This document shows positions 1,263-8,305 of a DNA stretch of 37,053 bases, piece by piece. Position 1 is the first letter of the stretch. The number at the start of each line of letters is the position of its first letter. Made by a program: the position numbers and the translations under genes. Source of the DNA: Armatimonadota bacterium (GTDB lineage Bacteria > Sysuimicrobiota > Sysuimicrobiia > Sysuimicrobiales > Humicultoraceae); contig JAVHMA010000030.1 of NCBI GenBank assembly GCA_031081715.1, positions 1-37,053 of the forward strand, written 5' to 3'. The notes under the pieces are model-generated. The model was not told the DNA's origin. It made no database searches and saw nothing but the letters and a program-made list of their open reading frames with translations.

Positions 1263-1979
1263 TCACGACGCGTCCTTCGGGCCGGCCTGCCGCGCCTTCG
1301 CGGACCGGCGCTCGCGGGGCGGCGCGACCCGGACCGGCCGCGGCGGCCCGACCACCAGATAATACTCGGCGATGTAGACGACCGTCGAGATCGTCCAGTA
1401 GATCGACAGCCCCAATGGGAACCAGCCCGCGACCGAGGTGTATGCGATGAAGAACGGCATGATAATGAACATGCGCGCCTGTTGCGGGTCAGTGATGGTG
1501 AGGTTTTGCTGCCAGTAGGTGGTGAGCCCGACCAGCACGGGCACCAGCAGTAGGCCCGGGTGGCTGAGGACCATCTGGAACGTGACCGCGGTCTCGAGGG
1601 CGACGCCGAAGAGCTGTTCGCCGCCGAAGGCGTTGGGCCGTCGCAGCAGGTCGAACAGCGCGTAGAGGATGGGCAGCTGCAGCAGTAGCGGTAGACACCC
1701 CCCCAGCGGGTTGGCGTTGTTCGCCCGGTACAGGCTCATGATTTCCACGTTGAGCTGGCGGGGGTCGTCCTTGTACTTGCGCCGTAGCACCTCGATCTGG
1801 GGCGCAAGGGCCTGCATGGCCTTCATGGACCGGAGCTGCTTGCGCGTAAGGGGGTGGAGCAGGAGCCGGATCGCGATCGTCAGCAGGACGATGGCGACCA
1901 GGTAGCTGCCGGTGACGCTGTGGAAGGCGCCGAGGCCAACGGCGAGCAGCTCGACGATCGCGTTGAAGATCTCTCGCAC
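1263..1979 (-). CDS. yidC: YidC/OxaI-family membrane protein insertase (short form)
   Basis: This insertase places membrane proteins into the cytoplasmic membrane alone or with SecYEG. The 238-residue protein is the short form, without the large periplasmic P1 domain of proteobacterial YidC. It has about five membrane segments; the first (around 24-42) carries Arg38 in IAIRLLLHPLTRKQ, the positively charged residue of the hydrophilic groove. A basic, coiled cytoplasmic hairpin follows (about 43-75), then the conserved LGGCLPLLLQLPILYALF segment. The C-terminus is short and basic. No lipobox is present. GTG at 1979 follows TAGGAGGCAGG, a strong ribosome binding site that overlaps the yidD stop. 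It sits in the standard rpmH-rnpA-yidD-yidC-jag order. Confidence 0.96.
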   Translation of the reverse strand: MREIFNAIVELLAVGLGAFHSVTGSYLVAIVLLTIAIRLLLHPLTRKQLRSMKAMQALAPQIEVLRRKYKDDPRQLNVEIMSLYRANNANPLGGCLPLLLQLPILYALFDLLRRPNAFGGEQLFGVALETAVTFQMVLSHPGLLLVPVLVGLTTYWQQNLTITDPQQARMFIIMPFFIAYTSVAGWFPLGLSIYWTISTVVYIAEYYLVVGPPRPVRVAPPRERRSAKARQAGPKDAS

Positions 1980-1988
1980 CCCTGCCTC

Positions 1989-2198
1989 CTAGGGAACGGG
2001 ATCGTACCCGCCGGGATGGAACGGATGGCAGCGCAGGAGGCGGCGGGCCGCCAGCCAGGCCCCGCGGGCCGCGCCGTGGCGCTCGATGGCCTCGGCCGCG
2101 TACGTGGAGCACGACGGATAGAAGCGGCACGAGCGCGGCAACAGCGGCGAGATCGCCCGCTTATAGACCGTGATGAGCAGCAGCAACGCCCGCGTCAC
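1989..2198 (-). CDS. yidD: YidD membrane protein insertion efficiency factor
   Basis: YidD is a small peripheral membrane protein that helps YidC-dependent insertion. The product (69 aa from this start) carries the family core [20 protein letters not shown], followed by [12 protein letters not shown] and the C-terminal [13 protein letters not shown], so it is essentially complete. I place the start at GTG 2198, which gives a 4-nt GTGA overlap with the rnpA stop. An in-frame ATG-type extension to 2225 would add an arginine/glycine-rich stretch with no family resemblance and overlap rnpA by 31 nt. The overlap suggests coupled translation from rnpA. Confidence 0.94.
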
Positions 2199-2557
2199 GC
2201 CGGCGCCTCCCCGCCCTCGCCGCACAGGCCGGTGGCGGCCAGGGCCTCTTCGAGGGCCGCCCGTAAGGCTGGCGCCCCCGCGGCCGCGGCCCCCTCGCGA
2301 GGCACGACGACCAGGTCCACGCCCCCTCGCAGACGTCGCTGGGCCCGAACAGCCTCGCGCAGGCGGCGCCGCAGCCGGTTGCGCCTCACCGCGCGGCCGA
2401 ACCGCCGGCCGACCGCGATGCCGACTCGGACCGTGCCCAGCCGGTTCGGCCGCGCATGGACCACCAGCAGCGCGGTCGCGCGCCGCACGCCCTCACGGTA
2501 GACACGGCGGAACTCGTCCTCGCGGGCAAGCCGGCCGATTGTGCCGTCGGCAGCCAT
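2195..2557 (-). CDS. rnpA: Ribonuclease P protein component
   Basis: RnpA is the protein subunit of RNase P, which matures tRNA 5' ends together with the RnpB RNA. The 120-residue, very basic product has the RNR signature [16 protein letters not shown] at about 54-69 and the upstream [10 protein letters not shown] strand of the fold. Length is typical. The acidic, alanine-rich C-terminal tail (about 88-120) is not conserved and is probably lineage-specific. ATG at 2557 is preceded by AGGGG and begins 5 nt after rpmH, consistent with an rpmH-rnpA transcript from the promoter at 2728-2756. Confidence 0.95.
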
Positions 2558-2562
2558 CGCCC

Positions 2563-2703
2563 CTAGCCGGCGACGCTGAGCCGATACCTCCCCTTGGCCC
2601 GGCGTCGCTGCAGCGTGCGCCGGCCACCTGGCGTGCGCATGCGGGCGCGGAACCCGTGCGCGCGCCTGCGTGGACGCTTCTTGGGCTGGTAGGTACGCTT
2701 CAC
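2563..2703 (-). CDS. rpmH: Large ribosomal subunit protein bL34
   Basis: bL34 is a small structural protein of the 50S subunit. The 46-residue, arginine-rich product starts [20 protein letters not shown] and continues with [19 protein letters not shown], the diagnostic bL34 sequence. The start is GTG at 2703 with GGAGGGG (complement of 2709-2715) spaced 5 nt away. It is the first gene of the leftward operon and faces oriC, its usual place in bacteria. Confidence 0.97.
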
Positions 2704-2756: not shown

Positions 2757-3158
2757 TCGACCGCCGGGACCGAAGGGCCCGTGTGCGCTTCTTGTGGACA
2801 ACCGGACCTCCTGTCCACATCTTGACGGTCAGTCTGTCGAGTCGCCCACCAAGTCGGTGCGACCACATCGGCCCATCCGCCTGGCTTATCCCGATGATGA
2901 TCATAGTCATCCACAGGGTTCTCCACACCTGTGGACAACCGCGCAAAGCCGCCCCCGGGGCGTGCCCTAGCGCGGATACGGTTGCGGAGGAGAACCCCCT
3001 GGGCGCCACGAAGCCCATTACGTTCGCTCCTAGTTGTCCACAGGTGTGCCAAGCCGGTGAACTTCTCCGGATCGGCGTGAACACTCGCCGCTTCCGGGAC
3101 TTGCAGGTAGGAATCCTCGCGTGAGCGGCCAACGATTCGGGTGCACACCAGATCGTCC
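2757..3158. other. Chromosomal replication origin (oriC) region
   Basis: The intergenic region between rpmH and the ATPase-HTH gene/dnaA is rich in DnaA-box-like 9-mers close to TTATCCACA/TTGTCCACA. On the plus strand these are 2811-2819 (CTGTCCACA), 2907-2915 (TCATCCACA), 2919-2927 (TTCTCCACA) and 3034-3042 (TTGTCCACA). On the minus strand they are 2793-2801 and 2930-2938 (each TGTGGACAA as read on plus). Three boxes are packed into 2907-2938, just after the AT-richer stretch 2886-2906, which includes the palindrome ATGATCAT (2897-2904) and is a candidate unwinding element. Gene orientation diverges here, as expected at an origin. No protein-coding gene is apparent in this stretch. Confidence 0.9.
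2924..3048. repeat. 15-bp perfect inverted repeat within oriC
   Basis: CACACCTGTGGACAA (2924-2938) is repeated in inverted orientation as TTGTCCACAGGTGTG (3034-3048), with 95 nt between the arms. Each arm consists of a DnaA box plus the same six flanking bases, so the identity extends beyond what the box alone would explain. Confidence 0.85.
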
Positions 3159-3947
3159 ATGTCGATACGTGCGCTGATCGCGCGCTTGGTGGAGGAGCGG
3201 CGCACCGCTCCGCTACCCGCCGACGGCGACGAGCCCGAGGTCAGGCTGGCGGTGTACGACACGCCGCTCGCGGCGCCCCGGGTGGTGTCGCTGCGCGGCG
3301 ACGACTTCCACACGTTGGTCGGCGAGCTGGCCGCGCGCACCTACGAGGTGTCGCGCGAGCGCGGAGGGCGCGTCCCCTACGTGGTGATCCGGGAGATCAT
3401 GGAGAACCTGATCCACGCGTACTTCCGCAACGCGACGATCACCGTCCTCGACGAGGGGAACACGATCCGCGTCGCCGACCAGGGTCCCGGCATCCAGGAT
3501 AAGGACCGCGCGCTGCGGCCGGGGTACTCGACCGCCACCGCGGAGATGCGACGCTACATCCGCGGGGTGGGAAGCGGGCTGCCGGTGGCGCACGAGCAGA
3601 TGGCGTTCCTGGGCGGCTCGCTGGTCATCGAGGACAACCTCGAACAGGGCACCGTGATCACCCTCAGCGTGCGGCGGGACCCGCCCGCGCCAGCGCCGGC
3701 GGGCGAGCCGCCGGCGCGCCACGTGCCCGAGGTCACCCCGCGCCAGAAGAAGGTGCTGCTGCTCATCGCCGAGCTCGGTGCCGCCGGGCCGACGACGATC
3801 GCCAAGGAGCTCGACATCAGCCACAGCACGGCCTACCGCGAGTTGCAGGTGCTGCGGGGCCTTAACCTCATCACGGGCCGGGGACGAGGCAGACGGACGC
3901 TCACCGAGGAAGGCATCGCCTACCTCGACGAGGTTTTCCGCTCCTGA
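3159..3947 (+). CDS. Histidine-kinase-type ATPase domain fused to winged-helix DNA-binding domain
   Basis: The product (262 aa from ATG 3159) joins a GHKL ATPase domain to a winged helix. The ATPase part has an N-box ([11 protein letters not shown]), a G1 box (DQGPGI) and a G2 box ([19 protein letters not shown]) ending in a GTVITLSV strand. It lacks any phospho-acceptor histidine or sensor domain, so it resembles SpoIIAB/RsbW-type anti-sigma kinases more than sensor kinases. A proline/alanine linker (about 175-190) leads to a C-terminal HTH ([20 protein letters not shown]) with a basic wing. It lies between oriC and dnaA, 38 nt upstream of the latter and in the same direction, so it probably shares control with dnaA. 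Function is not known to me; an ATP-dependent regulator acting at the origin or on dnaA is an inference. GTG 3141 is an alternative start; neither start has a strong ribosome binding site. Confidence 0.83.
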
Positions 3948-3985: not shown

Positions 3986-5326
3986 GTGTCGATCGAAGTC
4001 TCCCCCACGGAGCTGTGGACCGACGCGCTGCGCCGGATCGAGGGACAGCTCAACAAGCCCACCATGGAGTCGTTCCTCAAGGTCATGCGTCCGGTTGGCC
4101 TGGACGGTGATGTCTTCGTCTTCACCGTTCCCAACCGGTTTGCCAAGGACTGGGTCGAGCAGCGGCTGATGACCGTGGTGCGCGGCGCCCTGCGCGCCGC
4201 GGTCGGCCGCGCGGTCGAGGTGCGGATCGGCGTGGCCGACACGCCGCCCCCGCCGCCGGTCCGTGTGGCGCCGGTGACCGCGCCGCGCGGGATCGACGGG
4301 CTGCACCTGTCGCCCAAGTACACGTTCGAGACCTTCGTGGTGGGCGGCGGTAACCGGTTTGCGCACGCCGCGGCGCTGGCGGTCGCCGAGGCGCCCGCGC
4401 GCGCCTACAACCCCCTGTTTATCTACGGCGGCGTCGGCCTGGGCAAGACGCACCTGCTGCAGGCGATCGGGCACCGCGTGCTGCAAGCCGGGCTGGCCCG
4501 CGTCGCCTACGTGAGCAGCGAGAAGTTCACCAACGAGCTCATCAACTCGATCCGCGACGACAAGACCTTGGAGTTCCGGCAGCGGTACCGCAACGTGGAC
4601 GTGCTGCTCATCGACGACATCCAGTTCCTCGCGGGCAAGGAGCGGACCCAGGAAGAGTTCTTCCACACCTTCAACACGCTCCACGAGGCCAGCCACCAGA
4701 TCATCATCTCCTCCGACCGGCCGCCCAAGGAGATCCCGACGCTGGAAGACCGGCTGCGCAGCCGCTTCGAGTGGGGGCTGATTGCCGACATCCAGCCGCC
4801 GGACCTTGAGACCCGCATCGCCATCCTGCGCAAGAAGGCTGAGACCGAGGGGATCGCGGTGCCCGACGAGGTGGCGGAGTTCATCGCCCAGCGCATCCCC
4901 ACGAACATCCGCGAGCTCGAGGGCGCGCTGGTGCGCGTGGTGGCCTACGCGGCGCTCACCCGGTCGCCGATCAACGTGGCGCTGGCGGGCGACGTCCTGC
5001 GCGACCTGTTGCCGCCCGCCCGGGCGCGGGTGGTGACGATCGCGGCCATCCAGCAGGCGGTGGCGGAGTTCTTCGGGATCCGCGTGGAGGAGATGCGCGC
5101 CAAGCGCCGCACCAAGGGCGTGGCGTTCCCCAGACAGGTGGCGATGTACGTGGCGCGCGAACTCACGGACGCCTCTCTGCCGCGCATCGGCGAGGAGTTC
5201 GGGGGCCGCGACCACACGACGGTCATGCACGCCTGCCAGCGGGTGCGCGACGTGCTCCGGCGCGACACGCACCTGGCGGCGAGCCTCAAGCGCCTGATGG
5301 ACGACCTGCAGCGGCAGGGCGGATAA
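3986..5326 (+). CDS. dnaA: Chromosomal replication initiator DnaA
   Basis: DnaA binds DnaA boxes in oriC, forms an ATP-dependent filament and opens the duplex. The 446-residue protein has domain I (about 1-85), a very short linker with a proline run (PPPPPV), the AAA+ core with Walker A GGVGLGKTHLL (Lys154) and Walker B VLLIDDIQFLAG (Asp210-Asp211), and domain IV with the box-binding signature DHTTVMHACQRV (from about 409). GTG at 3986 is preceded by GAGAGGAG with good spacing. It is full length and follows the ATPase-HTH gene by 38 nt. Confidence 0.98.
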   Translation: MSIEVSPTELWTDALRRIEGQLNKPTMESFLKVMRPVGLDGDVFVFTVPNRFAKDWVEQRLMTVVRGALRAAVGRAVEVRIGVADTPPPPPVRVAPVTAPRGIDGLHLSPKYTFETFVVGGGNRFAHAAALAVAEAPARAYNPLFIYGGVGLGKTHLLQAIGHRVLQAGLARVAYVSSEKFTNELINSIRDDKTLEFRQRYRNVDVLLIDDIQFLAGKERTQEEFFHTFNTLHEASHQIIISSDRPPKEIPTLEDRLRSRFEWGLIADIQPPDLETRIAILRKKAETEGIAVPDEVAEFIAQRIPTNIRELEGALVRVVAYAALTRSPINVALAGDVLRDLLPPARARVVTIAAIQQAVAEFFGIRVEEMRAKRRTKGVAFPRQVAMYVARELTDASLPRIGEEFGGRDHTTVMHACQRVRDVLRRDTHLAASLKRLMDDLQRQGG

Positions 5327-6907: not shown

Positions 6908-7985
6908 CTACGCGCTGGCTGACCTGGCGCTGGCCGAGGGCGTCACGGTGTTCGTGGGGCCCAATGGGCAGGGCAAGTCCAACCTGCTGGAGGCCGCCTA
7001 CATGGTCTCCACCGGGCGCTCGCACCGTACCGGGCAGGAGGCCGAGGTGATCCAGCGGGGCGCGACCGCCGCCCGGGTGCGCGCGGCGATCGCGCGTCGA
7101 GGCCGGGAGGAGGAGCTCGAGGTCACGGTCGCGTTGGAAGACGGTCGCGGCAGCGTGCGGATGCGCCTGAACGGTGCGCCGAGCGCGCGCGGCGCCGTGC
7201 TGGGGCGGCTGCCGGTGGTGCTGGCCGCGCCGTGGGACCTGGAGCTGGTGCGCGGGGGAGGCGCCGGCCGGAGGCGGCTGATGGACGCAGCGCTCGCGCA
7301 ACTCTCCCCGGCATACTTCTTCGCCCTGCACCGCTACCACCGGGTCGTGATCCAGCGCAACGCTGTGCTGCGCGGCCGGGCCGGCCCCAGGGCGACGGGC
7401 CTGGAGCCGTGGGACGCGCAGCTCGTCGCGCTCGGCGTGCGCATCACCGCACACCGCGCGGCCTACGTCGAGCGCCTGCGCGGCCCCGCGGCGGACTGGT
7501 TCGGGCGCCTGGGCGGCGCGGGGACGCTGGAAGCGCGCTACCGGCCGTCGTGGACGGGGCAGGGGGACGAAACCTTGGCCGCGGCAGGGAGGGCGCAACT
7601 CGCACAGCGGCGGGCCGATGAACTCCGGAGGGGGCTGACCCTGGTCGGGCCCCACCGGGACGACTTGGAGCTGCTGCTCGACGGCGTGCCCTTGCGGGCG
7701 ACCGGCTCGCAGGGACAGTGGCGCACCGCGATGCTCGCGATGCGGCTCGCCGAGCGCGACGTCATGGCCGCGGACCTGGGCGCGCGGCCCGTGCTCCTGC
7801 TCGATGACGCGCTGGCCGAGCTCGATCCCGAACGGCAACGGCGTGTGCTCGACGTGGACGGCGAGGGCCAGGTGCTCGCGACCGCGACGGCGCTGCCCGA
7901 GGCGGCGACCTCCGCCCGGGTGATCGCGGTGCGCGCTGGCACACTGGAGGAGGCCGCATGGTCACCCCGATCCGCGACATCCTGA
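6867..7985 (+). CDS. recF: DNA replication/repair protein RecF
   Basis: RecF is an ABC-type ATPase that loads RecA at gaps through RecFOR. The 372-residue protein begins FRIRRLWLRTFRNYALADL. It has Walker A GPNGQGKSNLLEA (31-43), the signature region LTLVGPHRDDLELLLDG and Walker B VLLLDDALAELD (from 309). All essential motifs are intact. The start is GTG 6867, nested in the end of yaaA; the last 28 nt overlap dciA, implying translational coupling along the block. Confidence 0.96.
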   Translation: MFRIRRLWLRTFRNYALADLALAEGVTVFVGPNGQGKSNLLEAAYMVSTGRSHRTGQEAEVIQRGATAARVRAAIARRGREEELEVTVALEDGRGSVRMRLNGAPSARGAVLGRLPVVLAAPWDLELVRGGGAGRRRLMDAALAQLSPAYFFALHRYHRVVIQRNAVLRGRAGPRATGLEPWDAQLVALGVRITAHRAAYVERLRGPAADWFGRLGGAGTLEARYRPSWTGQGDETLAAAGRAQLAQRRADELRRGLTLVGPHRDDLELLLDGVPLRATGSQGQWRTAMLAMRLAERDVMAADLGARPVLLLDDALAELDPERQRRVLDVDGEGQVLATATALPEAATSARVIAVRAGTLEEAAWSPRSATS

Positions 7986-8305
7986 AATCGGCCGCGCGGA
8001 CGTGGGGGATCGAACCGGCGGTCCGACTGGCCGCGGTCCAGGTCGCCTGGGCCAGGATCGTCGGGCCGACGCTCGCGGGCATGAGCGCGCCCATCGGGCT
8101 GCGCGGCCGACGGCTGCGCGTGGCGGTGATGCATCCGGCCGCCGCGCAGGAGATCAGGCTGCGAGGGCCGGCCATCCTGGCGGCCCTGGCGCGGGAGATC
8201 GGTGAGGGCGCGGTGAGCGAGATCGCCACGGTGAGCCGCAGGCAGATCCGGCCTGGCAGGACGGGCGACCGCCGCGATGCCAGCGGCTCGCGGAGGCGGC
8301 CTTGA
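7958..8305 (+). CDS. dciA: DciA-like (DUF721) replicative helicase loader/operator
   Basis: DUF721 proteins (DciA) are the ancestral partners that help load the replicative helicase DnaB in bacteria lacking DnaC/DnaI. The 115-residue basic protein has the family pattern VQVAWARIVGPTLAGMSAPI, LRGRRLRVAVMHPAAAQEIR and a C-terminal basic tail. ATG 7958 follows GGAGGAGG. It overlaps recF, and its TGA shares one base with the ATG of the next gene. Position between recF and gyrB is typical of actinobacteria and relatives. Confidence 0.88.
   Translation: MVTPIRDILKSAARTWGIEPAVRLAAVQVAWARIVGPTLAGMSAPIGLRGRRLRVAVMHPAAAQEIRLRGPAILAALAREIGEGAVSEIATVSRRQIRPGRTGDRRDASGSRRRP

Follow-up and report, generated by a model that had tools for sequence, protein, structure and literature searches.

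A conserved GHKL ATPase-winged-helix gene between oriC and dnaA

Gene order and upstream DNA

The window (the whole stretch of DNA that was analysed, 37,053 nt) belongs to the candidate phylum CSP1-3, now Ca. Sysuimicrobiota (PMC11604079). Between its DnaA-box cluster and dnaA there is a 262-aa ORF, which runs on the plus strand from an ATG at 3159 to a stop at 3947 in the ORF list of the window. The features of this region are:

1263-1979, minus strand: yidC
1989-2225, minus strand: yidD
2195-2557, minus strand: rnpA
2563-2703, minus strand: rpmH, which bounds the origin interval at its other end (ORF list; relatives)
2793-3042, no strand: DnaA-box cluster (oriC) of six DnaA-box-like sites, conserved in relatives; boxes at 2793-2801 (minus), 2811-2819 (plus), 2907-2915 (plus), 2919-2927 (plus) with 2930-2938 (minus) as an inverted pair, and 3034-3042 (plus)
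3079-3133, plus strand: spaced block that follows the last DnaA box and precedes the gene, consisting of GAA (3079-3081), N25, GTAGGA (3107-3112) and GGCCAAC (3127-3133)
3159-3947, plus strand: GHKL ATPase-winged-helix protein, 262 aa (ORF, Pfam, relatives, predicted model)
3237-3677, plus strand: GHKL (Bergerat) ATPase domain, about residues 27-173 (PF02518, invariant columns, fold match to 3lmm over residues 23-174), with the N box E79/N83/H86, the G1 box D107-x-G109-P-G111 and the G2 box G136-V-G138-S-G140-L
3678-3722, plus strand: linker, about residues 174-188, of low confidence (pLDDT below 50 at 174-189; alignments)
3720-3944, plus strand: winged helix, residues 188-262 (Pfam, alignment, model, structural superposition)
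3986-5326, plus strand: dnaA, with its GTG start at 3986, 38 nt downstream of the ATPase gene

The six DnaA-box-like sites of the cluster compare with 15 in the entire 37-kb window, and the corresponding intervals of the same phylum contain on average 3.2 perfect DnaA boxes. The inverted pair, whose boxes are two bases apart (TTTTCCACA-cc-TGTGGATAA; 2919-2938 in the window), is found in 15 of 30 origins of the phylum and is likely a core element of oriC. The first-pass annotation placed the ATPase gene in the origin itself, 38 nt before dnaA and co-directional with it. The distance and the strand are as described; the gene, however, lies between oriC and dnaA and outside the DnaA-box cluster.

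All 95 loci that could be measured have the ATPase gene and dnaA in the same orientation. The median gap between them is 42 nt in the window's own phylum, 10 nt in the Geothermocultor class and 10 nt in the rest (typically 10-42 nt), where the lengths hinge on the start codon chosen and a few genomes contribute more than one locus. In several loci the two genes overlap by 4 nt. The single strand, the small gaps and these overlaps suggest that the ATPase gene is co-transcribed with dnaA and sometimes translationally coupled to it. No terminator-like site is found in the 38-nt gap of the window. In the loci whose ORFs were inspected, no sigma or STAS gene lies beside the ATPase gene, the neighbours being rpmH/rnpA/yidC and dnaA/dnaN. 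Farther downstream in the window, a DciA-like ORF (7958-8305, recognised by eye) is found between recF and gyrB.

The spaced block was identified post hoc from an alignment of 23 dereplicated origins of the phylum, 18 of which contain GAA-N24-26-G.AGGA (mean in shuffled sequences 0.31). Of seven held-out genomes, four show this pattern as well (0.08 on average in shuffles). A gap-position pattern for CCAA, the third part of the block, proved too strict and failed in the held-out set, which leaves that part as no more than a lead. In most members of the phylum with a clear start codon, the block ends at a nearly fixed distance of about 45 nt before it. The block differs from a normal sigma-70 promoter and is a possible promoter, operator or unwinding element. 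A leader peptide following the AGGA motif is ruled out, because no start codon follows the motif at a uniform distance and no frame is kept. Also ruled out is an RNA hairpin or riboswitch upstream of the gene, since the members fold differently and give no credible Rfam match. Across phyla no common operator motif is found upstream of the gene, and DnaA boxes are the only shared element. In eight Rubrobacter-type origins, a common CTGCAAAA is present just downstream of the DnaA boxes.

Domain architecture and ATP site

PF02518 (HATPase_c) matches residues 75-173 with an E-value of 7.5e-11 and 42.9 bits, above its curated cut-off of 26.4. Several winged-helix models of Pfam match residues 194-259, every one of them under its cut-off (e.g., TrmB with 21.1 bits for a cut-off of 25.6, HTH_20 with 20.9 for 27, and IclR with 19.2 for 22). 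The region of the recognition helix reads S221-x-STAYRELxxL. In a structure predicted with AlphaFold via ColabFold (22 sequences, mean pLDDT 73.5), a GHKL fold at about residues 27-173 is followed by a putatively disordered linker and a predicted winged helix-turn-helix (wHTH) at 188-262. The wHTH (75 residues) superposes in VIA-align on structures of MarR, CggR and Csa3 with Z-scores of 11-13, mostly at 1.1-2 A rmsd. The fusion of a GHKL ATPase to a winged helix, which had been proposed from the letters of the window, is thus borne out by the HATPase_c match, the AlphaFold model and the structural superpositions.

A Pfam scan at E-values up to 1 returns HATPase_c and HTH models only. It detects no histidine-kinase dimerisation domain (HisKA/DHp), receiver or sensor domain, in agreement with the earlier description of a protein that lacks receiver, sensor and phospho-acceptor, and the stretch preceding the GHKL domain is short. 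HATPase_c is found in all 35 members of the family that were compared, and wHTH-type models, TrmB and IclR among them, match most of these. The length of the linker varies among relatives. Members of Coriobacteriia type (ten loci) have long Pro/Gln-rich linkers between ATPase and HTH, the whole protein reaching up to about 450 aa; DnaA is diverged in the same loci.

Eight residues of the ATP site (E79, N83, H86, D107, G109, G111, G136, and G140) are invariant in the 35 members, which were drawn from all groups and range from 34% to 78% identity. The remaining invariant columns are G122, I134, L141, G153, G164, L232, and R246. The N, G1 and G2 boxes are therefore intact, and a degenerate ATP site, named beforehand as a finding that would speak against the proposal, is ruled out. 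Conservation at 34-80% identity, together with the invariant active-site residues, also rules out a chance ORF or a misannotation. With its E-x-x-x-N pattern and the distance from N83 to D107, the protein fits MutL-type GHKL ATPases (positions 21-68 of the TIGR00585 profile on residues 73-119). In ATPases of this type, the glutamate four residues before the asparagine is the general base for hydrolysis. In an HMMER alignment with the histidine kinase 3d36, E79 falls on the asparagine of the kinase, one helical turn off the MutL-type register. Sequence alone does not settle the exact register of the N box. From these motifs we infer that the GHKL domain binds ATP, and it probably hydrolyses it.

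Distribution and conservation of place

In the window's own phylum, the gene is found in 38 of 43 genomes, and in 28 of 28 when only genomes with a completeness of 90% or more and a contamination of 5% or less are counted. The order rpmH (minus), interval, ATPase gene (plus), dnaA (plus) is kept in 29 of 29 relatives among the matches listed. Of the five genomes without the gene, three have no dnaA match and two have only a dnaA fragment at a contig end. Since dnaA is missing or cut off in each, these misses are assembly gaps, and absence of the gene from close relatives is ruled out.

The gene is also found outside this phylum. Ca. Geothermocultor quzhuomuensis (Actinomycetota in NCBI) has it at the equivalent place with 46% identity, and 30 of 36 genomes of its class carry it. 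Among Actinomycetota sampled evenly, 60 of 149 genomes have the gene, which adjoins dnaA in every checked locus where the contig extends far enough. A third phylum, represented by three genomes, has the gene in all three, again at dnaA. Because gene and position recur in at least three phyla, the association is far beyond chance. The annotation had called for a check of this neighbourhood across phyla: the place is kept in every relative that can be checked, and loss of the position in close relatives, the other finding it had named as adverse, is not seen. No relative lies away from dnaA at the thresholds used, each genome giving a single match. In two overlapping domain-wide samples (291 and 386 genomes; E-value 1e-20) the gene is not found outside the above groups, so it is missing from most bacteria sampled. 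A spread by plasmids is not supported, as there is no match among 72,556 plasmids.

Three cultured strains would be among the carriers: Rubrobacter xylanophilus DSM 9941 and AA3-22, with chromosomes of 3,225,748 bp and 3,022,875 bp (PMC6706694), and Cryptobacterium curtum, with 1,617,804 bp (PMC3035227). The genomes assigned to DSM 9941 and C. curtum have dnaA at the start of the record and the ATPase gene at its very end.

Three genomes of 1.2-1.3 Mb (G058, G059, and G067) keep rpmH, the interval and dnaA, and the gene is absent between them. These are true losses, in effect natural knock-outs, implying that some reduced genomes can do without the gene and that it is not universally essential. 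In another genome (G064), a transposase-like ORF is located directly upstream of dnaA, at the place where the gene is expected.

Possible roles and known systems

The reading that we lean towards, if only by a little, is that of a nucleotide-switched DNA-binding regulator belonging to the oriC-dnaA locus. The GHKL domain would bind and probably hydrolyse ATP, and closure of its lid or dimerisation, dependent on ATP, would alter DNA binding by the tethered winged helix. The most likely target would be the gene's own upstream region, from the DnaA-box cluster to the start codon. Such a regulator could set the expression of the operon with dnaA, access to the origin, or both. DNA binding and the target site are putative, and the protein may either repress or promote. 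The domain content, the invariant ATP site, the kept place, the geometry of likely co-transcription and the agreement of the protein tree with that of DnaA favour this reading, as do the spaced block at its nearly fixed distance from the start codon and the MutL-type spacing from N box to G1. The three losses with dnaA kept, the absence of the gene from most bacteria sampled, the winged-helix scores under their cut-offs and the lack of a common operator across phyla count against it. Note also that the locus is syntenic, so that location alone may persist. As the gene lies outside the DnaA-box cluster and is missing from some reduced genomes, we class its product as a modulator, not as a core factor of initiation. 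The suggestion that it couples the energy state of the cell to initiation or to transcription of dnaA may hold, energy sensing being one option for such an ATPase.

Path lengths in the tree of the protein and in that of DnaA correlate with r = 0.67, the maximum in 2000 label permutations being 0.26. Both trees, which are quick trees with some long branches, recover the same groups, and Sysuimicrobiota form one clade with a support of 99 in each. The rate of evolution of the ATPase-wHTH protein is about double that of DnaA. Vertical descent and transfer jointly with dnaA each fit these trees. Co-evolution of this kind is also what an interacting pair would give. The GHKL domain might bind or phosphorylate DnaA or a partner directly, the winged helix merely docking at the origin, and the constant neighbourhood of dnaA, with reading frames that often overlap or nearly touch, would suit such contact. 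SpoIIAB is an example of a GHKL serine kinase, and TIGR01925, the model for anti-sigma F, is among the better matches of the protein (E-value 1.4e-5). Its score, however, is only 25.0 bits against a family cut-off of 135, shared descent explains the co-variation equally well, and no known DnaA-binding domain is found. We consider direct contact with DnaA unlikely.

Lower still in our estimation is an anti-sigma or partner-switch regulator like SpoIIAB and RsbW, with its true target elsewhere and its vicinity to dnaA a matter of old synteny. Its ATP lid and G boxes resemble those of SpoIIAB, and the rpmH-dnaA region is among the most stable gene neighbourhoods in bacteria, where a gene could hitch-hike. 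A gene kept in place by synteny alone should sometimes move, but none is seen elsewhere at the thresholds used; moreover, a winged helix of DNA-binding type is retained across phyla, and the inspected loci show neither STAS nor sigma neighbours. It is improbable that the protein, instead of being a transcription factor, acts at oriC as an architectural or remodelling ATPase that helps to unwind the origin or to load the helicase: the MutL/GyrB-type N box and the location at the origin agree with such a role, but dnaA looks ordinary, genomes that keep dnaA and the interval have lost the gene, the predicted architecture would be that of a small regulator, and the DciA-like ORF in the window makes a missing helicase operator an unlikely reason for the gene.

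Returning to the nucleotide-switched regulator, we put forward a wider reading tentatively: a so far undescribed family of origin regulators in which a GHKL ATP-clamp gates a winged helix at oriC, so that initiation is set by the ATP state. Conceivably, and on a footing just as modest, the family would belong to an early line of Actinomycetota, to Sysuimicrobiota and to the third phylum, with later loss from some genomes, and would form a layer apart from the ATP cycle of DnaA. Replication timing is largely unknown in most bacteria beyond Escherichia, Bacillus, Caulobacter, and a few others. A direct handle on it is offered by this gene, which three phyla or more keep between oriC and dnaA and whose product combines a DNA-binding domain with an intact ATP site. 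Its place is the same in several deep bacterial lineages separated by large evolutionary distances, and this makes it a good candidate switch linking chromosome replication with the state of the cell. With R. xylanophilus and C. curtum, one can conceive of deletion, ChIP-seq and ori/ter assays in cultured organisms, beyond the uncultured phylum where the gene was noticed, and the gene doubles as a synteny marker for the origin.

Among known proteins, the best structural match by Foldseek is DIP2311 of Corynebacterium diphtheriae (PDB 3lmm; E-value 2.3e-7), and residues 23-174 of the model superpose on its GHKL part in VIA-align with a Z-score of 13.2. DIP2311 is presumably one of the 'predicted transcriptional regulators' of COG2865 type (AlbA_2-GHKL-winged helix), and we take 3lmm to carry a wHTH after the GHKL domain. 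Both proteins thus have a GHKL domain and then a winged helix in one chain. However, identity is about 17%, DIP2311 is twice as long and has no known tie to dnaA or oriC, and, unlike the COG2865 type, the window protein gives no match to AlbA_2 (Schlafen-like) in Pfam at E-values up to 1.

The structural search favours no single GHKL subfamily, and the matches by sequence fall among histidine kinases, BCKD kinase, CheA, MutL, and SpoIIAB. With SpoIIAB and RsbW the protein shares a GHKL domain without a histidine phospho-acceptor, and there are weak matches to TIGR01925 and to PDB 1l0o, 1til and 1th8. It differs from them by its winged helix, its lack of a sigma or STAS neighbour and its genomic setting. 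The E-x-x-x-N N box and the spacing from N box to G1 are those of MutL and GyrB (the TIGR00585 stretch; MutL chains), while the transducer domain and the C-terminal parts of MutL or GyrB are replaced by the wHTH. Two-component histidine kinases have the GHKL ATP-binding domain in common with it, but not the HisKA/DHp domain with the phospho-acceptor histidine. The C-terminal 75 residues match MarR, TrmB and IclR (also Csa3 and CggR) in fold and superposition; the scores are under the family cut-offs, however, and in place of the ligand or dimerisation domains of those families the effector would be the GHKL ATPase.

These are known domains in what is apparently a new combination and setting, that is, an apparently undescribed conserved family. 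The review PMC5295017 makes no mention of GHKL. In the openly available literature, nothing relevant is found on this gene, on genes upstream of dnaA in Rubrobacter or Coriobacteriia, or on GHKL in combination with oriC. DnaA and oriC are regulated by SirA, YabA, Soj, Spo0A, and DnaD in Bacillus and by Hda, SeqA, and DiaA in E. coli. To our knowledge, none of these is a GHKL ATPase, and none has its gene between oriC and dnaA. The protein described here would do comparable work, the control of initiation at the level of oriC or DnaA.
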